Source: Vicinamibacterales bacterium
Lineage (GTDB): Bacteria > Acidobacteriota > Vicinamibacteria > Vicinamibacterales > Fen-181
DNA length: 64,000 nt
Reading direction: 5' to 3'
Assembly: GCA_036504215.1 (NCBI GenBank)
Contig: DASXVO010000002.1
Coordinates: 1 to 64,000, forward strand
Positions 17,564 through 30,757 of this stretch are shown piece after piece (position 1 is the stretch's first letter; each line of letters starts with the position of its first letter). Under the pieces are notes generated by a model. That model worked only from the letters and a program-made list of their open reading frames with translations, had not been told where the DNA came from and searched no databases. The translations under genes and the position numbers were made by a program.

Positions 17564-18241
17564 TCAGGGTTCGGGGGTCGTGTGACGAACGTCTTTCGCG
17601 GACACCATGAAGATGACGTCTTCGGCGATGTTGGTGGCGTGGTCTCCGATCCGTTCGAGGTGGCGCGAGATGAGGATGAGTTCGAGCGACCCTGTGATCT
17701 TCGACGGGTCCTGCAGCATGTAGGTGAGCAGTTCGCGGAAGATCTGCATCTTGAGGTTGTCGAGCACGTCGTCGCGATCGAGGACGGTCTGGGCCAGCCG
17801 CGTGTCTTTCTTGACAAACGCGTCGAGCGAATCGCGGAGCATGCCCTGCGCGTAGTCGGCCATGCGGGGCAGGTCCAGCAGCGGTTTGACGGGCGGTCCG
17901 GCCAGGTAGCGTTCCGCGGCCTCCGCGATGTTGACCGCCATGTCGCCGACCCGTTCGAGGTCCGTGTTGATCTTCAACGCGGCCACGATGGCCCGAAGAT
18001 CCGACGCGACGGGTTGGTGAAGGGCGAGCAGCTTGAACGCGCGGTTGTCGATGTCCAGGTGCAACTGGTTCACCGGCTCGTCGCCGCCGATGACGCCCGA
18101 GACTCGTGCCGAATCTCGATCGACGAGCGCGGAAATGGCTGCCTGCACCCGCTCCTCGGCCAGGCCCCCCATCGCCAGCAGCCGGGTGGTGAGTTGCTCG
18201 AGCGCTTCCTGGAAGTGGCGGACGTTCTCGCGCGATTCCAT
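17564..18241 (-). CDS. phoU: Phosphate-signalling regulator PhoU (stand-alone)
   Basis: A 225-residue cytoplasmic protein made of two three-helix PhoU repeats. Each carries the metal-binding signature: LERVGDMAVNIAE around residue 95 and LERIGDHATNIAEDV around residue 200. PhoU links PstB to PhoR and keeps the Pho regulon off when phosphate is plentiful. I choose ATG 18241 because GGAGAG lies nine bases upstream; an earlier in-frame ATG at 18265 would overlap pstB by eight bases and has no such site. It lies 16 bases after pstB, and the two form an operon. Confidence 0.9.
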   Translation of the reverse strand: MESRENVRHFQEALEQLTTRLLAMGGLAEERVQAAISALVDRDSARVSGVIGGDEPVNQLHLDIDNRAFKLLALHQPVASDLRAIVAALKINTDLERVGDMAVNIAEAAERYLAGPPVKPLLDLPRMADYAQGMLRDSLDAFVKKDTRLAQTVLDRDDVLDNLKMQIFRELLTYMLQDPSKITGSLELILISRHLERIGDHATNIAEDVIFMVSAKDVRHTTPEP

Positions 18242-18257
18242 CTGGATTGTCTCTCCA

Positions 18258-19124
18258 TCAGCCAAATCGGCCGGTGACGTAGTCTTCCGTCAGTCTCTCA
18301 CCGGGCGCCGTGAACAGTTTCTCGGTCCTCTCGAATTCCACGAGCCGCCCGAGCCAGAAGAACGCCGTGTAATCCGACACGCGCGCCGCCTGCTGCATGT
18401 TGTGCGTGACGATGACGATCGTGTAGTCGTTCTTGAGCTGGTAGATGAGTTCCTCGATGCGCTGCGTGGCAATCGGGTCGAGCGCCGAGGCTGGTTCGTC
18501 CATGAGCAGCACCTCGGGCTGCACCGCGAGCGCCCGCGCAATGCACACGCGCTGCTGCTGACCACCGGACAGCGACAGGGCAGATTCGCGCAGGCGGTCC
18601 TTCACCTCGTCCCAGAGCGCCGCGGCCTTGAGGCTCTCTTCGACCCGGCCCTCGAGGTCTGACCGCCCGGACGCCAACCCGTTCACGCGGATGCCGTACG
18701 CCACGTTGTCGAAGATCGACTTCGGAAAGGGATTCGACTTCTGGAACACCATCCCCACACGGCGCCGGAGGTCGACGACGTCGGTCGCCGGCCCATAGAT
18801 GTTCTCGCCGTCGAGCTCGACCGTGCCCGCGAGCCGCGTCCCGGGGATCGTGTCGTTCAACCTGTTGAAGGTCCGCAGGAGCGTGCTCTTGCCGCAGCCC
18901 GACGGGCCAATGAACGCCGTGACCAGATTCGTTCGGATGTCGAGCGAGATGTCGAAGAGCGCCTGCTTGGCGCCGTAGAAGAAGCTGGTCTGCCGGACGG
19001 AGATCCGAAGCTGATTGGCTGCCGCCGGCCAAGCCGGCTCGTCCGAGCGTCTGAACCCGCTCATCGCGGGCATCGGAACCGCCGTGCGGGCCCCCGAGGC
19101 GGGCGCCGAGAACGCGTAGGACAT
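18258..19124 (-). CDS. pstB: Phosphate ABC transporter ATPase PstB, canonical copy
   Basis: 288 residues. Every ATPase motif is intact: Walker [11 protein letters not shown]-loop [11 protein letters not shown], signature LSGGQQQR, Walker [13 protein letters not shown] and switch His in VTHNMQQA. A roughly 30-residue N-terminal extension rich in Ala/Pro precedes the domain. It should homodimerise and drive a PstC-PstA channel, most simply the canonical pair at 23208-25036, because its operon lacks permeases. The start at 19124 has no Shine-Dalgarno site; TATTCT lies six bases upstream, suggesting leaderless transcription behind a Pho-box-like repeat. Confidence 0.93.
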
Positions 19125-19130
19125 GGCCCG

Positions 19131-19172
19131 AGAATAGCCCCTGGCCATTGCGCAGCGGTTACGCTCGTGTAA
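19131..19172 (-). promoter_or_regulatory. Candidate Pho-regulated promoter of pstB-phoU
   Basis: On the minus strand, TTACACG (19172-19166) and TAACCGC (19161-19155) are half-sites 11 bases apart. The -10-like TATTCT (19136-19131) follows 18 bases later and ends six bases before the ATG at 19124. The 11-bp period matches PhoB/PhoP direct-repeat boxes, and two better copies exist upstream of the other pst units. Confidence 0.4.
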
Positions 19173-19195
19173 ATTCCGCGTTTCGTCCGCGCGGG

Positions 19196-20470
19196 CTATG
19201 CCACCGTTCCCGCCGGCACGACGCCCCACTTGGGGACGATGATGATGCCGTTGCGGATGTAGTAGCCGGCGCCGTCTGCCTGCTGCACGCCGGCCTCGTT
19301 CGTGAGGCGGACGCCGGCGCCGATACGGGCGTTCTTGTCCACGATGACCCGATCGAGCACGGAATCGGCCCCGATGCCCAGCTCGGGCCCGCCGTCGTGA
19401 AGTGGCGCATCATCGTCCTTCTCGTAGAAGTCGGCACCGAGCAGGACCGAGCGGGTGATCTCGCAGTTCCGGCCGACCCGCGTGCGGATGCCGACCACCG
19501 ACTGCTCGACCGTGCACTGGTCCATGTAGCAGCCTTCGGCGACCACGGCTTCATTGACCGTGCAGTGGTTCAGGCGCGACCCGGGCAGGAAACGCGGCCG
19601 CGTGAAGACCGGGCGTCGCGGGTCGTAGAAGTTGAAGGGCGCGCGCGGTCGCGTCAGCATGATGTTCGCGTCGTAGAACGACGGCACGGTTCCGACGTCC
19701 TGCCAGTAGTCGCGGAACAGGTACGCGTTCACGCGCCGGTTGTCGAGCGCGGCCGGAATGATCTCGTGGCCGAAATCCACGCCGGGATGCCGCTCCAGGG
19801 CGTCGAGCAGGACGTCGCGAGTGAAGACGTAGATGCCCATCGAGGCAATGAACGGCTTGTCCGCCGACGGCGCCAGGAACCTCGAGCCGGACGGCACGCT
19901 GGCTCCGATGGCTCGAAGACGCTCCGCGTTCGGCTTCTCCTCGAACCCGACGATCTGGCCATTCGTGTCGAAGCGGAAGATCCCCATCGCGGGCGCGTCG
20001 TCGGACGTGATCGGCTGCGCCGCGATCGTCACGTCCGCGCGCCGCTCCACGTGCTCCTCGATCATCGCCGCGTAGTCCATGCGGTAGAGATGGTCGCCGG
20101 CGAGGATCAGGTAGTACTCGGCATCGTGGTAGATGAAGTGTCGCGCGGCTTGGCGGACCGCGTCGGCCGTGCCCTGGAACCAGTTCGGGTTGTCGGGCGT
20201 CTGCTCGGCGGCGAGGATCTCGACGAAGCCGCGCGAGAACAGGTCCATGCGGTAGGTCTCGGCGATGTGGCGATTGAGCGACGCGGAGTTGAACTGCGTC
20301 AGCACGTAGATGCGCCGGATGTCGGCGTGGAGGCAGTTGCTGATCGGTACGTCGATCAGCCGGTATTTGCCGGCGATCGGGACGGCCGGTTTGGATCGGA
20401 GGTGCGTGAGAGGAAACAGGCGGGCGCCGCGGCCGCCGCCGAGTATGAGTGCGAGGACGTGTTTCATCAT
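19196..20470 (-). CDS. glgC: Glucose-1-phosphate adenylyltransferase
   Basis: A 424-residue enzyme making ADP-glucose, the committed donor for glycogen synthesis. The N-terminal nucleotidyltransferase has [39 protein letters not shown] and [10 protein letters not shown]. The C-terminal left-handed beta helix has the repeated hexapeptides ([31 protein letters not shown]). The length and the [13 protein letters not shown] phrase are closer to cyanobacterial and plant AGPases than to the E. coli enzyme. Pi is a classic allosteric inhibitor of these enzymes, which makes its place between pstB-phoU and phoB-phoR worth noting. All of these genes point the same way. Confidence 0.92.
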
Positions 20471-20506: not shown

Positions 20507-22264
20507 TCAACGAAGCGGAAGGCTGATGGTGAAGACGGCGCCGCCCTCAGGACGATTCGTCGCCCACACGCGGCCCCCCAGCAGACCGACGAGGTGCTTG
20601 ACGATGGACAACCCGAGCCCCGTGCCGCCCGATTCGCGCGAGCGGGCCTTGTCCACGCGGTAGAAGCGCTCGAAGATTCGATCGAGATCGGCCTCGGGAA
20701 TGCCAGGCCCCTCGTCCGCGACGGTCAGTATCGCACGGTCGTCGCTCTGCCTGCCGTCGAGCAGAATCCGGCGGCCCTCGGGCGAGTAGTTGACGGCATT
20801 CTCTATGAGATTGCGCAAGGCATCCTGCAGCTTGGCCGGGTCCGTCAAAATGGTGGCGACCGATGGTTCGACCTGGATGTCCACCAACTGTCGGCGCGAC
20901 TGGATCACCGGGGCGAGGTCGGCGGCCGCGCCGGCAAACAAGGCCTGCAGCGGACAATCGGTCTTCTCGACGGCTTCCTGCCGCGCGTCGAGACCCGCCA
21001 GCCGCAGGAGGTCCTTCACGAGGCGTTCCATGCGGCTGACGTGACGGGCGATGACCTCCAGAAATCGCGCGCGGTCCTCCACGCTGGCCGGTTCGTCCGA
21101 CAACGCTTCGACGTAGCCGCGGATCGCCGTCAATGGCGTCCGCAATTCGTGCGAAACGTTCGCGACGAAGTCGCGGCGCACCTGATCGGCCCTGCGCAGG
21201 TCGGTGATGTCGTGGAGAACCAGCACGGCGCCCCTGGCGGCCGGCGCGGTGACGGGGGCCGCGCGGCCGACCAGGCGCCGGTCAGGCGTACGGACCGGCG
21301 ACAGTTCGACGCCGGCAGGTTCCGCTCCCTCGAGGGCCTTGGTGAGAAGCGCCGCCACATCCGGATGCCGCACGAACTCCAGGTAGTGCCCGTCCACGGC
21401 CGCGTCGTCGATAGCCAGCATCGTCCGCGCCGCGCGGTTGACCAGCTGCACGTGGCCCTTGGCGTTGACCACCAGCACGCCTTCCACCATCCCGGAGAGG
21501 ATCGCGTCAGTCCGCGCGCGGTCCTGCGCGAGTTCCGCGACACGGCTTGCCAGTTCGCGCACGGTGTCGTCGAGGACACGGGCCACCGTGCCCAGTTCGT
21601 CGTGCTCGTAGTCCCGAACCGGCCGCGACAGGTCGCCTGAGGCAAACCGTTTGGCACCCGCCGCGATCGCGTTGAGCCGTCGCGCCAGCAACACGGACGA
21701 GAGCCAGGCCAGTGCCAGCGCACCGACCAGCGCGGCCGCCAGCGCCAGCAGCGTGAGGTTCCGCACCGACGCCACCTGCCGTTCGACGTCGGTCAGCGGC
21801 AGCGCCAGTCGCACGATGGCGACCGTTGGATGGGTGGCCCGCACCGCCACGTACATCATGCTGGTCTGGAGGGTCTGGCTGAAGCGCTCCGACACTCCCG
21901 CACCTGCGGCGCGGGCTTGGACGACCTCCGGCCGGGTCCCGTGATTGTCGAGCGAACGCAGGGCCTCGGCTCCGACCATGGAATCGCCGACCACCGTCCC
22001 GTCGCCGGCAATGAACGTGACGCGGGCGGGAAGTGTCTTGCCGATCCGTTGCGCTTCGATCTCGAGGGCGTCCGCGGTCAGCGTGGCCTGGTGCTTCATC
22101 AGCACGTCGGCGACCAGCCGGGCCTCCGATGTGAGTCCCTGCTGGATGCGCTGCGAGGTTTGACCGGCCAGCGAAAGGGAAAGGAGGATCGCGACGAGGA
22201 GCAGGACGGCGCTGGCAACGCCGAAGATCGCCAGGAAGATCTTTCCGCGGAATCCGAGGTGCAT
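20507..22264 (-). CDS. phoR: Phosphate-regulon sensor histidine kinase PhoR
   Basis: 585 residues. TM1 about 7-27, a periplasmic loop to about 160, TM2 about 165-187, HAMP about 188-240, PAS about 250-350 (DAILSGMVEGVLVVNA), HisKA with the phospho-accepting His in ANVSHELRTPLTAIRGY, and a C-terminal ATPase domain with NLIENAVNYSPEG, DEGPGIPEADL and GGTGLGLSIVKHL. It probably phosphorylates the PhoB encoded 78 bases upstream under phosphate limitation. An in-frame GTG six codons earlier (22282) is possible. The long periplasmic domain is larger than in E. coli PhoR. Confidence 0.85.
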   Translation of the reverse strand: MHLGFRGKIFLAIFGVASAVLLLVAILLSLSLAGQTSQRIQQGLTSEARLVADVLMKHQATLTADALEIEAQRIGKTLPARVTFIAGDGTVVGDSMVGAEALRSLDNHGTRPEVVQARAAGAGVSERFSQTLQTSMMYVAVRATHPTVAIVRLALPLTDVERQVASVRNLTLLALAAALVGALALAWLSSVLLARRLNAIAAGAKRFASGDLSRPVRDYEHDELGTVARVLDDTVRELASRVAELAQDRARTDAILSGMVEGVLVVNAKGHVQLVNRAARTMLAIDDAAVDGHYLEFVRHPDVAALLTKALEGAEPAGVELSPVRTPDRRLVGRAAPVTAPAARGAVLVLHDITDLRRADQVRRDFVANVSHELRTPLTAIRGYVEALSDEPASVEDRARFLEVIARHVSRMERLVKDLLRLAGLDARQEAVEKTDCPLQALFAGAAADLAPVIQSRRQLVDIQVEPSVATILTDPAKLQDALRNLIENAVNYSPEGRRILLDGRQSDDRAILTVADEGPGIPEADLDRIFERFYRVDKARSRESGGTGLGLSIVKHLVGLLGGRVWATNRPEGGAVFTISLPLR

Positions 22265-22341
22265 CGAAGCCTCGCCGTTCACCGGTCAGCACGCCGGCGG
22301 GAAATCGGCTCCACAGTTGTGCCGGCCTCCCGGCGTCGCCG

Positions 22342-23043
22342 CTAGTCGTCGCCTTTCGCGGCCGGATCGACCAGCTTGTACCCGAACTGCTTGACGGTGA
22401 CGAGCGCGTCCGTCAGGAGCGGAATCTTCTCCCGGAGCCGGCGTACATGGACGTCGACGGTTCGCGTGCCGCCCGTGTATTGATAGCCCCAGACCTCCTG
22501 GAGAAGGCGGTCGCGTGACAGGACCCGTCCGGGATGCTGGACGAAGTACTCGAGCAGCAGGAACTCCTTGGCCGTGAGTGTCACCTCACGCCCCGCGTCG
22601 GTGACAACGTGACGCTCCCGGTCGATCGAGATCGGGCCGCAACTCGACCGCAGGCCATTCGTGCCGGCCGCGCGGTTGGCACGACGGAGCAGCGCGGCGA
22701 CCCGGGCCACGAGTTCCTTCGGGCTGAACGGCTTCGTCAGGTAGTCGTCCGCGCCCAATTCCAGTCCGGAGACCCGATCGGATTCCTCGGCCCGGGCTGT
22801 GACGACGATAATCGGAAGATCGGCCGTGGCCGACTGGCGACGCAGGGCCTGGCAGATCTCGAGCCCGTGAAGGCCCGGGAGCATGAGATCCAACACCATG
22901 AGATCCGGGCGCCGGGTTCGGACGCGCGGCAGGACATCGGTGCCCGAAGTCAGCACCTCCGCCGTGTGCCCGGCCCTGACCAGGTAGTGACGAATCAACT
23001 CAGCGATGTCGTGGTCGTCTTCGACGATGAGAATGTGGCTCAC
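22342..23043 (-). CDS. phoB: Phosphate-regulon response regulator PhoB (OmpR family)
   Basis: A 233-residue two-domain regulator. The receiver domain has the acidic pocket VEDDHD, the phospho-acceptor Asp52 in LMVLDLMLPG, Thr in VTARAEES and Lys in YLTKPFSPKE. The C-terminal winged helix (about 130-225) has TAKEFLLLEYFVQHPGRV and TVDVHVRRLREKI. It should bind the 11-bp-repeat boxes found upstream of the pst units. It is transcribed with phoR and divergent from pstC; the intergenic 164 bases hold a Pho box and a -35/-10 pair. Confidence 0.9.
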   Translation of the reverse strand: MSHILIVEDDHDIAELIRHYLVRAGHTAEVLTSGTDVLPRVRTRRPDLMVLDLMLPGLHGLEICQALRRQSATADLPIIVVTARAEESDRVSGLELGADDYLTKPFSPKELVARVAALLRRANRAAGTNGLRSSCGPISIDRERHVVTDAGREVTLTAKEFLLLEYFVQHPGRVLSRDRLLQEVWGYQYTGGTRTVDVHVRRLREKIPLLTDALVTVKQFGYKLVDPAAKGDD

Positions 23044-23093: not shown

Positions 23094-23109
23094 CGGAGAA
23101 GACGTGCCG

Positions 23110-23127
23110 TAACACCGTTTTAACACC
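23110..23127 (+). promoter_or_regulatory. Candidate Pho box between phoB and pstC
   Basis: Two identical TAACACC heptamers start at 23110 and 23121, exactly 11 bases apart, in the divergent phoB/pstC intergenic region. Direct repeats with 11-bp period are the hallmark of PhoB (TGTCA-type) and PhoP (TTAACA-type) boxes. Confidence 0.55.
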
Positions 23128-23207: not shown

Positions 23208-24191
23208 GTGCCCGAGAGTGCGGCGCCGACAATCACGATGGGGCGTCCGTGGAGCAGCTTGACCCGCCTGGGCCTGCAGCTGCGCCGCGGCGACGCGCTC
23301 GCGCACGCCATCGCCCTCGTCTTCGGCGCGTCCGTGCTCGTCGTCACCGGTCTGCTCGCATGGCAGCTGTGGGTCAACTCGGTGCTGCCCCGCCGCCAGT
23401 TCGGCTGGCGGTTTCTCTTCTCGCAGACGTGGGATCCGGTGGCCGGTCAGTTCGGCGCGGCGGCGTTCGTCTACGGCACGGTGATGACGTCGGCCCTCGC
23501 GTTGCTGATTGCCGTGCCTCTTGGAATCGGCGTGGCCATCTTCCTCGCGGAGCTGGCGCCGCCGCGGCTCTCGGCGATGGCCGGCATGCTGCTCGAACTC
23601 CTGGCAGCGGTGCCGAGCGTCATCTACGGGCTCGTCGGCGTGTCGATCCTCGTGCCGATCATGCGCGTGTACGTTCAGCCGGCGCTGAAGGCGGCGACGG
23701 GCGGCTTCCCGCTGTTCAGCGGCCCCGCGTACGGGATCGGCCTGCTGACCGCCGGGATCGTGCTCGCGGTCATGGTCGTGCCCTTCATCGTGTCGGTCGG
23801 TCGGGAAGTCCTGCTCGCCGTGCCGCGGGAGCAGCGCGAGGCCGCGCTGGCCCTGGGGTCCACGCGGTGGGAGAGCACGTGGAAGGTCGTGTTGCCCTAC
23901 GCCCGGCCAGGCCTGTACGGCGCCGTCTTCCTGGCGCTCGGCCGCGCGCTCGGCGAGACGATGGCGGTGACGATGGTCATCGGCAACCGTCCCGAAATCG
24001 CCGCGTCGTTGTTCGCGCCCGCGTACTCGATGGCCGCTGTCATCGCGAACGAATTCAGCGAAGCCACCGAGGAACTCTATCTCCAGTCGCTCATCGAGGT
24101 CGGCCTCGTGCTGTTCGCGCTCACGATGGTCATCAACGTGGTGGCTCGCGGCCTCATCGCGGCGACCGCTGACCAGGGCAGCGCACGATGA
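23208..24191 (+). CDS. pstC: Phosphate ABC transporter permease PstC, first copy
   Basis: A 327-residue inner-membrane permease with six core hydrophobic segments plus an N-terminal one. The coupling (EAA-type) loop is complete: EAALALGSTRWESTWKVVLP, followed by the GRALGETMAVTMVIGN helix that defines PstC. It forms the translocation channel with PstA; ATPase is most likely the canonical PstB at 18258. GTG start with GAGAGGGG just upstream. The stop overlaps the pstA start as ATGA. Confidence 0.9.
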   Translation: MPESAAPTITMGRPWSSLTRLGLQLRRGDALAHAIALVFGASVLVVTGLLAWQLWVNSVLPRRQFGWRFLFSQTWDPVAGQFGAAAFVYGTVMTSALALLIAVPLGIGVAIFLAELAPPRLSAMAGMLLELLAAVPSVIYGLVGVSILVPIMRVYVQPALKAATGGFPLFSGPAYGIGLLTAGIVLAVMVVPFIVSVGREVLLAVPREQREAALALGSTRWESTWKVVLPYARPGLYGAVFLALGRALGETMAVTMVIGNRPEIAASLFAPAYSMAAVIANEFSEATEELYLQSLIEVGLVLFALTMVINVVARGLIAATADQGSAR

Positions 24192-25036
24192 GCGTGCTGA
24201 CCCGCAACCGCCGCCGGAAGATCCTGAGCGACTTCATGCTCGGCCTGAGCGCCCTGTTCACGGTGCTCTGCATTTCCCTGCTCTTCTTCGTCCTGGGATA
24301 CCTCCTCATCAAGGGGGGATCGTCTGTCAACCTGGCCTTCTTCACGAAGCTGCCCACGCCGCCGGGGGAAGACGGCGGCGGGATGGCGAATGCGCTGGTC
24401 GGCAGCGCGAAGCTGCTCGGGATCGCGGCGGTCACCGGCCTGCCCATCGGGTTTCTCGCCGGACTGTATCTCAGCGAATTCGCCGGTCGAACGATGGCGA
24501 CCGTCGTGCGGTACGCCGCCGATCTGCTGAACGGCGTGCCGTCGATCGTCATCGGCATCTTCGTCTACACGCTCGTGGTGCTGCCGATGCAGCACTTCTC
24601 GACGCTCGCCGGCGGGCTGGCGCTCGGCATCATGATGATTCCGATCATGACGCGCAGCACCGAGGAGTTTCTCCGGGCCGTCCCGGTGACGCTCCGCGAG
24701 GGATCGCTCGCCCTCGGCGCCACGCGCACGCTGACCATCATCCGCGTCGTCGTCCCTGCGGCGGCCCGCGGGATCGTGACGGCCGCAATGCTCGGCCTGG
24801 CCCGCGTGGCCGGCGAGACGGCGCCGCTACTCTTCACGGCCCTCAGCAACCGGTTCTGGAGCCCCGGGATCAACCAGCCGACCGCCTCGCTGCCCGTCAT
24901 GATCTTCAACTACGCGGTCGCTCCCTACGACGACTGGCACCGGCAGGCTTGGGCGGCCGGCCTCGTCCTTCTCACGCTCGTGCTGGTCGCCAACCTCAGC
25001 GCGCGGTACCTGCTGGGCGGACGGCAGGAGAGCTGA
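24188..25036 (+). CDS. pstA: Phosphate ABC transporter permease PstA, first copy
   Basis: A 282-residue inner-membrane permease with six hydrophobic segments. The coupling loop is EGSLALGATRTLTIIRVVVP and the diagnostic helix is LARVAGETAPLLFTALSN. It is translationally coupled to pstC by a four-base overlap. There is no pstS or pstB immediately after it; a 302-base gap and a new Pho box precede the fusion operon, so PstS from 26465 probably serves both channels. Confidence 0.9.
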   Translation: MSVLTRNRRRKILSDFMLGLSALFTVLCISLLFFVLGYLLIKGGSSVNLAFFTKLPTPPGEDGGGMANALVGSAKLLGIAAVTGLPIGFLAGLYLSEFAGRTMATVVRYAADLLNGVPSIVIGIFVYTLVVLPMQHFSTLAGGLALGIMMIPIMTRSTEEFLRAVPVTLREGSLALGATRTLTIIRVVVPAAARGIVTAAMLGLARVAGETAPLLFTALSNRFWSPGINQPTASLPVMIFNYAVAPYDDWHRQAWAAGLVLLTLVLVANLSARYLLGGRQES

Positions 25037-25338
25037 CCGAGGCTTCGCGCCAGCTGGACTCCGCAGTCTGTCCCCGTGCGGACACTGGACGTTCGAGGAC
25101 GGCTGCCAACGGGCCGACGACACCGGTGACTTCTCGGTCCGAGTCCGGCCGGGCCCCCAGCCGACCTCGAGCGTCACCTGTCCGTCCACTGTTGCTCTCT
25201 CGCTCGCCCTCCTGCCGGTCTCCGCGGCCCGCGCAACCTGCCTCTTGTTACACCGTCGTGACACTGTCACTATAGGGAGCGGCGTGGTCTGCGCGTGCCA
25301 ATAGTTCTTGTGTCAGGGCGCTCAAATGAGGTAGAGAA
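25037..25338. other. 302-base intergenic region before the phoU-fusion operon
   Basis: No gene is visible. It contains a perfect 16-bp inverted repeat TGTCC-N6-GGACA at 25069-25084 (possible operator or terminator stem), several further GTCC/GGAC repeats up to about 25190, and a candidate Pho box at 25248-25265 followed by CTATAGGG. Confidence 0.5.
25248..25276 (+). promoter_or_regulatory. Candidate Pho-regulated promoter of the phoU-fusion/pst operon
   Basis: TTACACC (25248) and TGACACT (25259) are half-sites exactly 11 bases apart. TATAGG at 25271-25276 is a possible -10. The following gene starts about 60 bases later with its own GAGG ribosome site. Confidence 0.5.
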
Positions 25339-26484
25339 TTGGCGGGGGATTTGACCGTGACGACACCATCGACGCCGCATCTCGAGGCGTTGTTGCAGCA
25401 CGACGTGGAACTGCTCCGGCGGAAATTGCTGGAGATGGCGGCCCTGGACGAACGGGCGCTGACGAGGGCCCTGCAGGCGTTCCTGACAGGGGACCGTCAG
25501 CTGGCCTACTCGGTCATTCTTCGCGACCAGGACGTGGACGCCTTCGAGACCGAACTCGACAAGCTCTGCGTCGAGTTCATCGTTCGCCACCAGCCGGCCG
25601 CCGGGTTGCTTCGCTTCGTGTACGCGACGAGCAAGATCGTCGGCGCGCTGGAGCGAATCGGCGACTACGCCGAGAGCATCGCGCGCCAGGTGCTGCTCGC
25701 CAGTTCCCTGCCCTACGACATCCCGACCGACAAGTACAGCGAGATTGCCAACCTGGCGATTCCCATGCTGCACAACGCGATGCGGGCGTTTCTCGAGAAG
25801 AACCCGGACCTCGCCCGGACGACGCTCGCGAGCGAACCCCATGTGAACCAGGTTCGCGACGCCATCAACGCCCAGTTGGTCGAATGGCGCCAGGAGGGCC
25901 GGCTGCCGCTCGAGGCGCTGCCCCCGATGATCACCGTCGCGCGCCGTTTCGAGCGCGTGTCGGACCAGGCGACGAACATCTGCGAAGAGGCCCTCTATTT
26001 CGCCACCGGGGAGTACCAGCGCCACAAGGCACGTGAGGGGTTCCGCGTCCTGTTCGTCGACGAGTCGAACAGCTGCCTGAGCCAGATGGCGGAGGCTGTT
26101 GCGAACCGGCTGGGCCCCAAACGGTTCTCCTTTGCCAGCGCGGGCCTTGTGGCCGGCCCGGTGGATCCGCAGACGATCCAGTTCCTCGCCGACAAGGGGA
26201 TCGACGCGTCACATCAGGTGTCGAAGGCGCTCGACGGCATTCCCAGTCGCGACGAACTCCAGTTGGTGGTTGGGCTCGGCACCGAGGCACACAAGGCGAT
26301 TCCGCAGCGGCCGTCGAAGACGCTCGGGATTGACTGGTACGTCCCGGACCCGTCGGAAAGCCGAGGCAGGCCCGCCGATGTCACGGCGGCCTACGAGGCG
26401 GCGTTCGAATCGCTCAACGATCACATTCGAGATCTCGTTCAAGCCATATTGGATGACCCGACCCATGACCAAGCTCAGAAGTGA
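25339..26484 (+). CDS. PhoU fused to a catalytically dead LMW-phosphatase/ArsC-like domain
   Basis: 381 residues. Residues about 15-225 are a complete PhoU with both repeat signatures (LERIGDYAESIA, FERVSDQATNI). Residues about 235-375 align with the low-molecular-weight tyrosine phosphatase/arsenate reductase fold: the P-loop reads VLFVDESNSCLSQMAEA where active enzymes have VxFVCTxNSCRSQMAEA. The nucleophilic Cys is Asp241 and the phosphate-binding Arg is Leu247, although Cys246, SQMAE and the Asp-Pro acid loop (D337-P338) remain. The second redox Cys pair of ArsC is also absent. So it probably cannot hydrolyse phosphate esters or reduce arsenate; it may sense or bind an oxyanion or a protein partner. 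TTG 25339 has GAGG seven bases upstream; GTG 25357 is an alternative. It overlaps pstS by 20 bases. Confidence 0.85.
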   Translation: MAGDLTVTTPSTPHLEALLQHDVELLRRKLLEMAALDERALTRALQAFLTGDRQLAYSVILRDQDVDAFETELDKLCVEFIVRHQPAAGLLRFVYATSKIVGALERIGDYAESIARQVLLASSLPYDIPTDKYSEIANLAIPMLHNAMRAFLEKNPDLARTTLASEPHVNQVRDAINAQLVEWRQEGRLPLEALPPMITVARRFERVSDQATNICEEALYFATGEYQRHKAREGFRVLFVDESNSCLSQMAEAVANRLGPKRFSFASAGLVAGPVDPQTIQFLADKGIDASHQVSKALDGIPSRDELQLVVGLGTEAHKAIPQRPSKTLGIDWYVPDPSESRGRPADVTAAYEAAFESLNDHIRDLVQAILDDPTHDQAQK

Positions 26485-27388
26485 CGGTGGACGCCTCCCG
26501 CTCCGGGCGGCAGGTGTCGCGCTCGTGGTGTGTCTCCTGGCCGTATCGGCCGCCTGTTCGCGCGGCAAGGCGCCGTCGAAGAACGTGATCCAGGACACCG
26601 GTTCGGACACGATGGTGAATCTCGCTCAGGCGTGGGCCGAGGAGTACGCGAAAGTCGACCCGAGCGTCTCGGTCGAGGTGTCGGGCGGGGGATCCGGAAC
26701 GGGCATTGCGGCCCTGATCGAGGGAACGGTCGACATTGCGAACTGCAGCCGCAGCGTCGAGCCGCAGGAGGTCGCGCAGGCCAAGAAGAACACGGGCAAG
26801 GAGCCGCGTGAGTTCAAGGTGGGCTACGACGCGCTCGCGGTCTACGTCCACAAGAACAACCCGATGACGGACATCACGTTCGAGCAACTGGCGCAGATCT
26901 ACGGTGAAGGCGAGACCGTGACGAAGTGGTCGCAACTCGGCGTGAAGATGCCCGCCGGGGCGGATGAGATCATCCGCGTCAGTCGCCAGTCCAATTCCGG
27001 CACGTATGCCTACTTCCGAGAGGCGGTCCTCGGCAAGGGCCGCGATTTCAAGCTCGGGTCGCGTGACATGCAGGGCTCGAAGGACGTCGTGGAACTGGTG
27101 TCGAAGACGCCGCAGGCGATCGGGTACAGCGGGATGGGGTATGCCACGCCCGAGGTGAAGATGCTGCACGTTGCCCGGAAGGCGGGGGACCAGTTCTACG
27201 CGCCGACGGTGGAGAACACTTTGAACCACACGTACCCGATCGCGCGCCCGCTGTTCATGTACACTCTAGGTGAGCCGTCCGGTGGAGTGAAGAAATACAT
27301 GGACTGGGTGCACTCGGACGCCGGTCAGCAGATTGTTGTGAAGAGCGGCTACGTGCCGCTGCCGCGGGGCGGCGACACGGCGAAGTAG
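26465..27388 (+). CDS. pstS: Phosphate-binding lipoprotein PstS
   Basis: 307 residues. A signal peptide ends with a lipobox-like AVSAAC (Cys about residue 31), so it is probably a membrane-anchored periplasmic lipoprotein. Phosphate-contact motifs are visible: DTGSDTM (for the usual GSGS/T loop), SGGGSGTGI, and RQSNSGTYAYF. It captures phosphate and hands it to a PstC-PstA channel. It starts inside the end of the PhoU-fusion gene; an in-frame ATG at 26453 would add four residues. It is the only pstS in the window and leads into the second permease pair. Confidence 0.9.
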   Translation: MTKLRSDGGRLPLRAAGVALVVCLLAVSAACSRGKAPSKNVIQDTGSDTMVNLAQAWAEEYAKVDPSVSVEVSGGGSGTGIAALIEGTVDIANCSRSVEPQEVAQAKKNTGKEPREFKVGYDALAVYVHKNNPMTDITFEQLAQIYGEGETVTKWSQLGVKMPAGADEIIRVSRQSNSGTYAYFREAVLGKGRDFKLGSRDMQGSKDVVELVSKTPQAIGYSGMGYATPEVKMLHVARKAGDQFYAPTVENTLNHTYPIARPLFMYTLGEPSGGVKKYMDWVHSDAGQQIVVKSGYVPLPRGGDTAK

Positions 27389-27415: not shown

Positions 27416-28309
27416 GTGCAGCATCGACGACGCTGGGAACTGGTGGTGGAGAAGGGGATTGAAGCGCTGATTCGCCTATGTGGCATCAGCGCCATCGTCT
27501 TCGTTTTCGGGATATTCTTCTTCGTCTTCCGGGAGGGCGCCGGTTTCCTGGTCCACGGGTTCAATCCCCGCGAGTTCTTCACGAGCGTCGAGTGGTACCC
27601 GACGTCGCAAAGCCACGTGCGGTACGGCGTGCTCGCGCTGATCGCCGGGACGGCCGGCGTCACCGCGCTGGCCATGGCGATCGCGGTGCCGTTCGGCATC
27701 GGGTCGGCGATCTTCATCTCGGAGTTCTGTGGAGTCCGTGCCAAGGAAACGCTGAAGATCGTCATCGAACTGCTCGCCGCGATCCCGTCGGTCGTCTGGG
27801 GATTCATCGGCCTGACGGTCATGAATCCGCTGATCATGCGCCTGTTCGGCGCTCCCATCGGCCTCAACGTGTTGAACGGCGGCGTGATCCTCGCGCTGAT
27901 GAGCGTCCCGATCATCGTGTCGATCGGCGAGGACGCGCTCAAGGCGGTGCCCGATTCGTATCGCGAAGCGGGGCTCGCGCTGGGCGTGACCAGATGGCAA
28001 CTGGTCCACCGGGTCCTGCTGCCGGCCGCCAAGAACGGCCTGCTGGCCGCGGTCCTGCTCGGCGTCGGCCGCGCCGTCGGCGAGACGATGGCCGTGCTGA
28101 TGGCAACCGGCCATGCCGTGAAGATTCCGACGAGCGTGATGGACTCGGTGCGGACGCTGACTGCCACGATTGCCGCCGAACTCGGCGAGGCGCCCGTGCA
28201 TTCGGATCACTACCAGGTGTTGTTCATCATCGGGATTCTGTTGTTCATGATCACGTTTGTGGTCAACCTGACGGCCGACCTCGTCGTCCGCGGGATTCGC
28301 AACCGGTGA
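27416..28309 (+). CDS. pstC: Phosphate ABC transporter permease PstC, second copy
   Basis: A 297-residue inner-membrane permease with the PstC coupling loop EAGLALGVTRWQLVHRVLLP and helix GRAVGETMAVLMATGH. GTG start with GGAG six bases upstream. It differs clearly from the first PstC and lies between pstS and a second pstA in an operon that ends with the two unusual pstB genes, so it most likely works with those. Confidence 0.9.
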   Translation: MQHRRRWELVVEKGIEALIRLCGISAIVFVFGIFFFVFREGAGFLVHGFNPREFFTSVEWYPTSQSHVRYGVLALIAGTAGVTALAMAIAVPFGIGSAIFISEFCGVRAKETLKIVIELLAAIPSVVWGFIGLTVMNPLIMRLFGAPIGLNVLNGGVILALMSVPIIVSIGEDALKAVPDSYREAGLALGVTRWQLVHRVLLPAAKNGLLAAVLLGVGRAVGETMAVLMATGHAVKIPTSVMDSVRTLTATIAAELGEAPVHSDHYQVLFIIGILLFMITFVVNLTADLVVRGIRNR

Positions 28310-28338: not shown

Positions 28339-29223
28339 GTGTTCCAAGCCACCTCCTTCACGCGCCGCAAATCGGTCAGCGAACTCGCCGCCAGGACTGT
28401 CTTCCTGGCCATGACGCTGATGATGGTGGTGCCGCTGTTGCTCATCGTGGCCTACCTGTTCTACGAGGCGTGGCCGATCCTCTCGCTGGACTTCCTGCTC
28501 GAGAATCCGAGGAACGGCATGCGGGCGGGCGGAATCTGGTCGCCGCTGGTCGGCACGATCTACCTTGTCGTGATTTCACTCATGATCGCCACACCGATTG
28601 GGGTGCTGGCGGCGGTGTTCCTGAACGAGTACTCGCGGGACAACTGGTTCACCCGGGTCGTGAACCTCGCGGTCGTGAACCTCGCAGGCGTGCCGAGCAT
28701 CGTCCACGCGCTATTCGGGCTCGGTGCGTTCGTGCTGTTCGCAGGGTTGGGTAAGTCCATTCTCGCGGCGTCCCTGACGCTCGCCATCATGACGCTGCCG
28801 GTGATCATCGCCAGCACCAAGGAAGCACTCGCATCCGTGCCGAAGGCGTTTCGCGAGGCCTGCTGGAACGTGGGGGCGACCCGCTGGCAGACGATCCGCC
28901 ACGTGGTGCTCCCGAATTCAATCAGCGGGATCCTGACAGGCGTGATCCTGCAGGTGTCGCGCGCCGCCGGCGAGACCGCGCCGATCATGTTCACCGGCGC
29001 GGTGTTCTTCAAGGCGATCGAACCCGGCAGCCTCTTCGCCTACGGCCCCTTCGATCAGTGCATGGCGCTCTCGATGCACCTGTTCACGATCTCGACACAG
29101 GTGCCGGATGTGCCGCCAGCACTGCCGTACGGCACGGCGGTCGTCCTGCTGGCGACGGTCTTGATCGTGAACGCCGCGGCGATTGCCGTGCGGGTGCGAT
29201 TGCGCGGCCGGAGGAAGTGGTGA
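28339..29223 (+). CDS. pstA: Phosphate ABC transporter permease PstA, second copy
   Basis: A 294-residue inner-membrane permease. The coupling loop is EACWNVGATRWQTIRHVVLP, with Cys-Trp in place of the usual small residues, and the following helix is VSRAAGETAPIMFTGAVFF. It carries an extended region between the last two segments (QVPDVPPALPYG). GTG start. The stop overlaps the next pstB start as GTGA. The altered coupling loop may match the altered ATPases; that is inference. Confidence 0.88.
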   Translation: MFQATSFTRRKSVSELAARTVFLAMTLMMVVPLLLIVAYLFYEAWPILSLDFLLENPRNGMRAGGIWSPLVGTIYLVVISLMIATPIGVLAAVFLNEYSRDNWFTRVVNLAVVNLAGVPSIVHALFGLGAFVLFAGLGKSILAASLTLAIMTLPVIIASTKEALASVPKAFREACWNVGATRWQTIRHVVLPNSISGILTGVILQVSRAAGETAPIMFTGAVFFKAIEPGSLFAYGPFDQCMALSMHLFTISTQVPDVPPALPYGTAVVLLATVLIVNAAAIAVRVRLRGRRKW

Positions 29224-29981
29224 CCGCCGCCCCGATGATCGCGCTGGACGGGCTTTGCGTCCGCTACGGGCAGCGCGAGGCCTTGAAGGGCGTGACGTTC
29301 GACGTGCGTCGCAACGAGGTGCTGGGCATCATTGGCCCCGCGCAGTCGGGCAAGAGCACGTTGCTGCGGACCCTGAACCGCACGATCGACGATGTGCCGG
29401 GCGCGGTCGTGACCGGCACCGTGACGGTCGACGGCGAGAACGTGCGCCAGGTGCGCGACGTGTTCGCTCTCCGGCGCAAGGTGGGCATGGTGGCGCCGCT
29501 GCCGGTCGGGTTGCCGCTGTCCATCTACGACAACGTGGCGTTCGCGCCACGGATGGCCGGTATCCGCGACCGTCGGACGCTCGACGAACGCGTCGAGCGG
29601 TGTCTGCACCAGGCCGCCCTCTGGGACGAGGTGAAGGACCGGCTGGACAACCTGGGTACGAAACTGTCCGGCGGCCAGCAACAGCGCCTCACCATCGCCC
29701 GCGCGCTGTCGCACGAACCCGAGGTGCTGTGCCTCGATGAGTTCTCGATCGCGATCGACCCGGTCACCACGATGCGAATCGAGGATGTACTCAAGGAACT
29801 TCGCGATCGGATGACGATTGTACTCGTGACGAATCTGGTCCAGCAGGCCCGACGGATCGCGGATCGCACGGCGTTCCTGTTGAACGGCGAACTCGTGGAG
29901 ATCGACCGGACCGAGGTGATCTTCTCCGAGCGCCCGGCCGACTCGAGGACGTACGACTACGTCAGCGGAATCTTCGGATGA
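29220..29981 (+). CDS. PstB-like ATPase lacking Q-loop Gln and switch His (signature subunit)
   Basis: A 253-residue ABC ATPase of the PstB family. Walker A is intact (GPAQSGKST, 39-47), the signature is canonical (LSGGQQQR, 149-156), and Walker B keeps its Asp173-Glu174. The Q-loop, normally GMVFQ, reads GMVAPLPVG, with Pro93 at the Gln position. The switch motif, normally VTHNM, reads VTNLV, with Asn205 in place of His. The Glu is followed by FSIAID rather than PTSALD. Its own nucleotide site should therefore be poorly hydrolytic, while its signature could still complete a partner's site. GTG start overlapping pstA; the end overlaps the next pstB as ATGA. Full length and open, so it is not a decaying pseudogene. 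Confidence 0.88.
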   Translation: MTAAPMIALDGLCVRYGQREALKGVTFDVRRNEVLGIIGPAQSGKSTLLRTLNRTIDDVPGAVVTGTVTVDGENVRQVRDVFALRRKVGMVAPLPVGLPLSIYDNVAFAPRMAGIRDRRTLDERVERCLHQAALWDEVKDRLDNLGTKLSGGQQQRLTIARALSHEPEVLCLDEFSIAIDPVTTMRIEDVLKELRDRMTIVLVTNLVQQARRIADRTAFLLNGELVEIDRTEVIFSERPADSRTYDYVSGIFG

Positions 29982-30757
29982 GCGAGACCCGCGCCGACTA
30001 CAGCATCGCGACCAAGACCCTGAGCCTGTGGTACGGGACGTTCCAGGCGTTGAAGGACGTCACGCTGAACGTCCGACACGGTCACATCACGGCGCTCATC
30101 GGCCCGTCCGGCTGCGGCAAGACCACGCTTCTGCGGTGCTTCAACCGGATCAACGAACGCTACGGGTCGGTGAAGACGACGGGGGAGATCCGGATTCTCG
30201 GACAGAACATCTACGCGCCGGATGTCTCGCTGGTGGAGTTGCGGAAGTCGGTCGGCATGGTGTTCCAGCGGCCGAATCCGTTGCCGATCTCCGTCTACGA
30301 AAACGTGGTCTTCGGCCTCCGTGTCCACAGCGGCCTCGCCGCGCTCCGCAGGAAGAACCTGGACGAGGCCGTCGAGAAGGCGCTCCGCGAAGTGTCCCTG
30401 TGGGATGACCTGAAGGATCGCCTGCACCTGAAAGCGACGGCGCTTCAGCTCGAGCAACAGCAGAAACTGTGCATCGCCCGCCTCCTGCCGCTGAAGCCCG
30501 AGGTCATCCTGATGGACGAGCCGTGTTCGGCCCTGGACACGGAAGCGACACTCGCGGTCGAGGAGTTGATGGCGACGCTCGCCGGGCACTACACCATGCT
30601 CATCGTGACCCACAACATGGCGCAGGCTCGCCGCGTGAGCAGAGAGTGCGCCTTCATGCTGATGGGAGAACTCGTCGAGATGGCCCGAACCGAGGACCTC
30701 TTCCTCACGCCCCGGGACGAGCGGACCGGGGACTACATCGAGGGACGATACGGCTAG
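29978..30757 (+). CDS. PstB-like ATPase lacking the LSGGQ signature (catalytic subunit)
   Basis: A 259-residue ABC ATPase of the PstB family. Walker A (GPSGCGKTT, 42-50), Q-loop (GMVFQRPNPLP, Gln97), Walker B (LMDEPCSALD, Glu181) and switch His212 (VTHNM) are all canonical. The signature is destroyed: LQLEQQQK at 156-163 where PstB has LSGGQQQR, while the surrounding residues (QQ and LCIAR) are conserved. The preceding gene has the reverse pattern, so a heterodimer would have one consensus site (this Walker A/B/His with the partner's LSGGQ) and one degenerate site. The ATGA overlap supports equimolar synthesis. It is the last gene of the operon. Confidence 0.88.
   Translation: MSETRADYSIATKTLSLWYGTFQALKDVTLNVRHGHITALIGPSGCGKTTLLRCFNRINERYGSVKTTGEIRILGQNIYAPDVSLVELRKSVGMVFQRPNPLPISVYENVVFGLRVHSGLAALRRKNLDEAVEKALREVSLWDDLKDRLHLKATALQLEQQQKLCIARLLPLKPEVILMDEPCSALDTEATLAVEELMATLAGHYTMLIVTHNMAQARRVSRECAFMLMGELVEMARTEDLFLTPRDERTGDYIEGRYG

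Follow-up and report, generated by a model that had tools for sequence, protein, structure and literature searches.

How PhoU, a repressor of the Pho regulon, senses the state of the Pst phosphate importer is a long-standing open question, and a hard one, since the usual PstB ATPase is a symmetric homodimer. In asymmetric heterodimeric ABC ATPases such as TAP and TM287/288, complementary loss of motifs in the two subunits leaves a consensus ATP site paired with a degenerate one. In Escherichia coli, PhoU contacts both PstB and PhoR, and the conformations of the transporter set the signal (PMC5775613). Here we analyze a 64,000-nucleotide stretch of the genome of a Vicinamibacterales bacterium (contig DASXVO010000002.1 of assembly GCA_036504215.1; hereafter the window), in which an operon for a Pst importer with two divergent ATPases, PstBa and PstBb, is led by a gene whose product is a full-length PhoU continued in frame by a domain of the ArsC/LMW-PTP fold, the active site of which is dead. 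The nucleophilic Cys of the dead domain is replaced by an Asp, which is nearly invariant in a widespread family of such fusions (the Asp family). With moderate confidence in the explanation taken as a whole, we favour a scenario in which an ArsC-type arsenate reductase gave rise to the dead domain, which now serves as the docking or allosteric arm of a PhoU-type signalling subunit dedicated to an asymmetric Pst importer.

The fusion gene is a single uninterrupted reading frame (Table 1), which can start at TTG or at a GTG that would shorten the product to about 375 residues; the upstream GGGGGA is better placed for the GTG. The Pfam PhoU family matches the protein in two stretches (E=1.3e-35), and over the whole protein the NCBIfam model TIGR02135 (phoU_full) scores 143.1 bits, above its cut-off of 130.25. 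The C-terminal part is matched by Pfam LMWPc (PF01451; residues 237-365, E=1.6e-9, 38.5 bits versus a cut-off of 23.2), and its 61.2 bits against TIGR02691 (arsC_pI258; cut-off 174.3) place it outside that ArsC family. An AlphaFold2 model built from a 40-row alignment has a mean predicted local confidence (pLDDT) of 90.8, and its two halves superpose on the PhoU structure 1t72 and on Bacillus subtilis ArsC 1jl3 with template modelling scores of 0.95 and 0.87, respectively. The two E-x-x-x-D metal motifs of PhoU (E92/D96 and E192/D196 in A3 numbering) are invariant or nearly so among 40 sequences. By its score, its two three-helix repeats, its fold and these motifs, for which metal binding is predicted, the N-terminal half is a member of the PhoU family. 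A preliminary description of the locus, made without database searches, had recognized a complete PhoU followed in frame by an ArsC/LMW-PTP fold with the P-loop DESNSCL, and the Pfam, NCBIfam, phmmer and fold matches bear this out.

In the phmmer alignments D241 pairs with the nucleophilic Cys of ArsC and L247 with the P-loop Arg, i.e. both defining residues of the CX5R loop are missing. Aligned to intact relatives, the P-loop columns of the window protein read D, N, C, L and S; Asn244, Ser248 and the Asp-Pro loop remain, and the second Cys of the P-loop (C15 of ArsC) is still there as C246. The redox pair that has been lost is the distal one: the positions of C82 and C89 of ArsC are occupied by Gly and Ile, and only 2 of 58 Asp-family members have a Cys in that region. 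The loss of the nucleophile, of the Arg and of the second redox pair, as well as the persistence of the Asp-Pro loop, had been read correctly in the preliminary description, and with D241, L247 and the Gly and Ile in place, the domain is, on the evidence of these residues, incapable of ArsC or LMW-PTP chemistry.

About 60 relatives of the fusion were recovered from Acidobacteriota, Verrucomicrobiota, Lentisphaerota, Fibrobacterota, Myxococcota, KSB1 and Gemmatimonadota. An initial search of 60 related genomes returned seven further fusions; a scan of the collection contributed loci in Bryobacterales, Vicinamibacteria, Thermoanaerobaculia, many Verrucomicrobiota, Lentisphaerota, Chitinispirillaceae, KSB1, Polyangiaceae and Gemmatimonadota. 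When 396 Acidobacteriota and 289 Verrucomicrobiota genomes were searched with full-length profiles, additional members emerged, including a divergent subfamily B. Among the 57 fusions that were aligned and tabulated, the nucleophile position is Asp in 56 and Ser in one, and an additional relative outside this set (L119) has Glu; the same position (D228 of A3) is one of 19 columns invariant among 40 sequences. The P-loop Arg is retained in 29 of the 57 and lost in 28. On a tree from which the P-loop columns were left out, the state of the Arg changes at least eight times and that of the Asp once, and the window protein groups with Bryobacterales relatives in a clade of five that has full support and Leu at the Arg position throughout. 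Judging from these alignments, the conserved element of the dead P-loop is the Asp and not the phosphate-binding Arg. An intact CX5R loop in close relatives, which would have pointed to a merely local mutation, does not occur within the Asp family. One of the two patterns used in the scan includes the Asp; however, its enrichment as a product of search bias is ruled out, as every one of the eight loci that only the PhoU pattern caught has Asp, and the searches with full-length profiles in Acidobacteriota and Verrucomicrobiota were independent of it. Two oddities came to light in the course of these searches: in a Verrucomicrobiota genome (G485, L122:1213-2067) the fusion frame continues directly into a PstB fragment, owing to a deletion or an assembly join, and a Thermoplasmatales archaeon has a stand-alone LMW-PTP-like protein (L087:7968-8441) with the P-loop DETNDLQ, apparently a separate Cys-to-Asp change.

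The genome is a draft in 90 contigs, in which a sequencing or assembly error could have joined two genes, or a recent local mutation could have spoiled an active site. Yet the same fusion with the same Asp recurs in dozens of independent assemblies of unrelated genomes, including one from the same order as the window that consists of a single contig (G009), and the GC content of third codon positions is 0.89, 0.90 and 0.79 across PhoU, junction and dead domain, so that a frameshift or assembly join is ruled out; a recent mutation is ruled out by the near-fixation of the Asp. The probability of an artefact of either sort is therefore negligible. A less trivial alternative is that the PhoU half does all the work and that the dead domain is a passive remnant, contributing just bulk or solubility. 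The PhoU half is indeed the better conserved (mean identity 51% versus 45%), and operons with two PstB genes and a plain PhoU exist. However, the ratio of nonsynonymous to synonymous substitution rates in the dead domain is 0.04-0.46 in eight close pairs, usually somewhat above that of the PhoU half, which indicates purifying selection and a domain that is constrained rather than decaying. Moreover, it has been kept across several phyla, together with its Asp, as one clade and not as a series of recurrent decays. We consider the passive remnant quite improbable.

What the P-loop may still do is suggested by which of its residues are fixed. According to the preliminary description it may bind phosphate or arsenate, and an oxyanion sensor that relays its occupancy to the PhoU half would be in keeping with the retained ArsC/LMW-PTP fold, with the Asn and Ser found in most members, with the Arg of those that keep it, and with a gene that always lies beside a phosphate importer. 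The conservation pattern argues against such binding: the Arg has been lost repeatedly, and throughout the window's clade, the fixed carboxylate would work against an anion in the pocket, and the acid-loop Asp, present in 33 of the 47 members of subfamily A, is gone from subfamily B. We regard a sensor of this kind as unlikely, and possible mainly in the half of the family that keeps the Arg. As the acid is fixed while the Arg is free to vary, we suggest instead that the carboxylate itself occupies the oxyanion place. The Asp would probably fill the pocket and take the P-loop hydrogen bonds otherwise accepted by bound phosphate, freezing the loop in its closed form, in which nothing need bind and the anion-binding Arg would be dispensable. 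Alternatively, the chemistry could have changed, with the Asp as a phosphoacceptor or nucleophile, as in receiver domains and HAD phosphatases, and the domain either phosphorylated or acting as an Asp-based phosphatase. The Asp, with which the first strand ends, stands exactly at the nucleophile position, the Glu of L119 is still acidic, and most of subfamily A has the acid-loop Asp. On the other hand, no other acidic or metal-binding residue was seen to be invariant alongside it, subfamily B does without the acid-loop Asp, one member has Ser, and the Pfam scan gave no match to HAD or receiver domains; we consider such an activity quite unlikely.

All Asp-fusion loci with enough sequence have the order fusion-pstS-pstC-pstA-pstBa-pstBb or, as is usual in subfamily B, pstS-fusion-pstC-pstA-pstBa-pstBb. 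PstBa and PstBb of the window score 292.6 and 328.4 bits against the PstB model TIGR00972, both under its cut-off of 343.2. In 43 PstBa sequences Walker A, LSGGQ and the Walker B Glu are kept, and the Gln of the Q-loop (VFQ to VAP or VFP) and the His of the H-loop (THN to TNL) are lost; 39 PstBb sequences keep the Q- and H-loops and have LQLEQ or similar in place of LSGGQ. This pattern extends across phyla and also to operons without the fusion, and at the level of sequence motifs it is the complementary loss that characterizes asymmetric heterodimeric ABC ATPases. A PstBa/PstBb heterodimer would have one complete ATP site, formed by the PstBb core and the PstBa signature, and one degenerate site. 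Among 396 Acidobacteriota genomes, the PstBa motif is found in 17 of the 20 with an Asp fusion and in 20 of the 376 without one (Fisher p=5e-17, a value that ignores relatedness); the remaining three have the same gene order on contigs that end inside or before pstBa. Thus, the association with a heterodimeric-PstB operon that the preliminary description had noted in this one locus holds wherever neighbours can be read. Tandem PhoU genes occur in two loci, L060:2245-4217 and L063:6565-8489, where the fusion is immediately preceded by a canonical PhoU gene.

We propose that the motor of this importer is a PstBa/PstBb heterodimer with one working ATP site, on which the frozen domain most likely docks or acts allosterically, and that the PhoU of the fusion would read the ATPase pair and pass the state of phosphate transport to PhoR/PhoB. 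That the dead domain would report to PhoU, and that the fusion may be the dedicated regulator of this transporter, as the preliminary description proposed, we infer from gene order. Several observations weigh against this proposal. The predicted template modelling score of the AlphaFold2 model is only 0.63, so that the placement of the two domains relative to each other is uncertain; a weak anion site is possible in the 29 members that retain the Arg; and the dead domain is not essential to the dual-PstB transporter, because some such operons have a plain PhoU (G011, G029, Planctomycetota) or none alongside (genus g109). Many uncultured bacteria of soil and water thus contain a natural PhoU with a conserved but dead extra enzyme domain, and with a PstB pair of asymmetric make-up as its proposed partner. 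In such a system a single docking face, a single working ATP site and a single regulator could be separated genetically. It is tempting to go further and to imagine, although we think it rather doubtful, that importer and regulator alike have been remodelled around active sites that are dead, the former as a PstB heterodimer with one dead ATP site and the latter as a PhoU pseudo-arsenate-reductase with a phosphate-mimicking carboxylate. Together they would make a transporter-coupled phosphate sensor of a new type, where a pseudo-enzyme recognizes an asymmetric ATPase or the Asp is a phosphoacceptor.

Table 1. Features of the fusion operon and of its surroundings (positions in the window).
Feature	Position	Strand	Basis or remark
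PhoU/pseudo-ArsC fusion	25339..26484	+	381 amino acids from TTG, or start at GTG 25357
PhoU domain, residues 21-225	25399..26013	+	TIGR02135 match; 1t72 fold match; E-x-x-x-D helices LERIGD and FERVSD both kept
Pseudo-ArsC/LMW-PTP-fold domain, residues 236-370	26044..26448	+	Pfam, NCBIfam, phmmer; 1jl3 fold match
Dead P-loop DESNSCLS	26059..26082	+	alignments; Asp241 at Cys nucleophile, Leu247 at Arg, Ser248
pstS	26465..27388	+	TIGR02136, 241 bits (cut-off 206.6); 20-nucleotide overlap with fusion gene
pstC, dual-ATPase system	27416..28309	+	TIGR02138
pstA, dual-ATPase system	28339..29223	+	TIGR00974
pstBa	29220..29981	+	LSGGQQQR kept; Q-loop VFQ to VAP; H-loop THN to TNL
pstBb	29978..30757	+	Q-loop and H-loop kept; signature LSGGQ to LQLEQ
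Candidate regulator site GTTACACCGTCGTGACAC	25247..25264	+	11-bp-spaced repeats upstream of fusion; match to GTNACACNGTNNTNACAC
Candidate regulator site, second copy	23109..23126	+	between phoB and pstC1
pstC1-pstA1, canonical Pst system	23208..25036	+	Pfam, NCBIfam
phoB (22342-23043) and phoR (20507-22282)	20507..23043	-	reading frames, named from sequence
Canonical phoU (17564-18265) and pstB1 (18258-19229)	17564..19229	-	NCBIfam; motif reading, pstB1 with all ABC motifs

The window thus also contains a canonical Pst system together with phoB and phoR, which served us as phmmer queries for typing the neighbourhoods of other fusions; phoB/phoR adjoin the fusion operon at several loci. The gene glgC (19196-20470), which overlaps or abuts pstB1, lies between phoR and the canonical pstB1-phoU pair (window 18258-20470), and a second PstS, of the E. 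coli type, is encoded just beyond the window end. Genome-wide, the PhoU of the fusion has two matches, both inside the window. In one other genome (G428) the fusion is the sole free-standing PhoU, and in two (G426 and G430) PhoU occurs, apart from the fusion, only as modules within much longer reading frames. The 18-bp pattern GTNACACNGTNNTNACAC, derived from the same two sites that it matches, has just these two matches in the 5.9-Mb genome even if one mismatch is allowed, upstream of pstC1 and of the fusion, which hints at common control of both pst operons through this candidate site. The window's own genome is the only one in which the repeat was seen, and upstream of the fusion in relatives an E. 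coli-type Pho box gave no consistent signal.

Not all fusions of PhoU with ArsC are dead. Four (L108, L123, L124 and L125) keep the Cys, the Arg and both distal Cys residues, in operons of the order pstS-pstC-pstA-single pstB-fusion with an ArsC-like reading frame ahead of pstS. Operons of this composition with intact active sites were read at L126, L127, L128 and L129, and the ArsC-like frame of L129 is itself an ArsR-ArsC fusion (L129:3672-4454). These operons look like arsenic-controlled Pst systems, as far as gene content tells. The intact fusions share domain order and pst operon with the Asp family, but differ from it in the catalytic residues kept, in the single canonical PstB, and in the position of the fusion, which is last in the operon. 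In the domain tree the intact domains branch within ordinary ArsC at two or more points and away from the Asp family, which is separated by a long branch with 86/100 support in a tree of few columns. The dead domain is therefore unlikely to stem from the intact fusions, and the fusion probably arose more than once, with at least three separate events the likelier count in view of the tree. Among PhoU-ArsC fusions, the link to the dual-PstB system is limited to the Asp lineage. These findings suggest a route by which an arsenate-handling enzyme may be recruited into phosphate transport, both alive, as in the intact fusions, and dead.

Our searches of the open-access literature, with subscription papers outside their range, yielded nothing on a PhoU-ArsC/LMW-PTP fusion, on its Asp form, or on a degenerate PstB heterodimer, and database annotations of the architecture may well exist. 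In comparison with PhoU (TIGR02135/PF01895), the fusion has the full-length fold, the E-x-x-x-D motifs and the setting in a pst operon, often with phoB/phoR near; however, the usual PhoU is last in its operon, whereas the fusion is usually first or second, carries the dead ArsC domain, and partners a PstB pair. Two pstB genes within one pst locus are also known from Enterococcus faecalis, but the motifs of that adjacent pair are complete in both proteins (PMC12096839), unlike those of the complementarily degenerate PstBa and PstBb. With thioredoxin-type ArsC (TIGR02691; 1jl3, 1jf8) and LMW-PTP (PF01451) the dead domain shares the fold, the P-loop Asn and Ser, the SAG strand and, in most of subfamily A, the Asp-Pro loop; it differs from them in the change of Cys to Asp, in the loss of the distal redox Cys residues in nearly all members and of the Arg in about half, and in the fusion to PhoU. 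A Cys-to-Asp change is also found in the D2 loop of the receptor phosphatases PTPRG and PTPRZ. In receptor PTPs the inactive D2 domain is thought to act through docking or regulation (PMC6016963), as we propose for the dead domain of the fusion, but these eukaryotic pseudophosphatases belong to another PTP class and are paired with an active PTP domain, not with PhoU.
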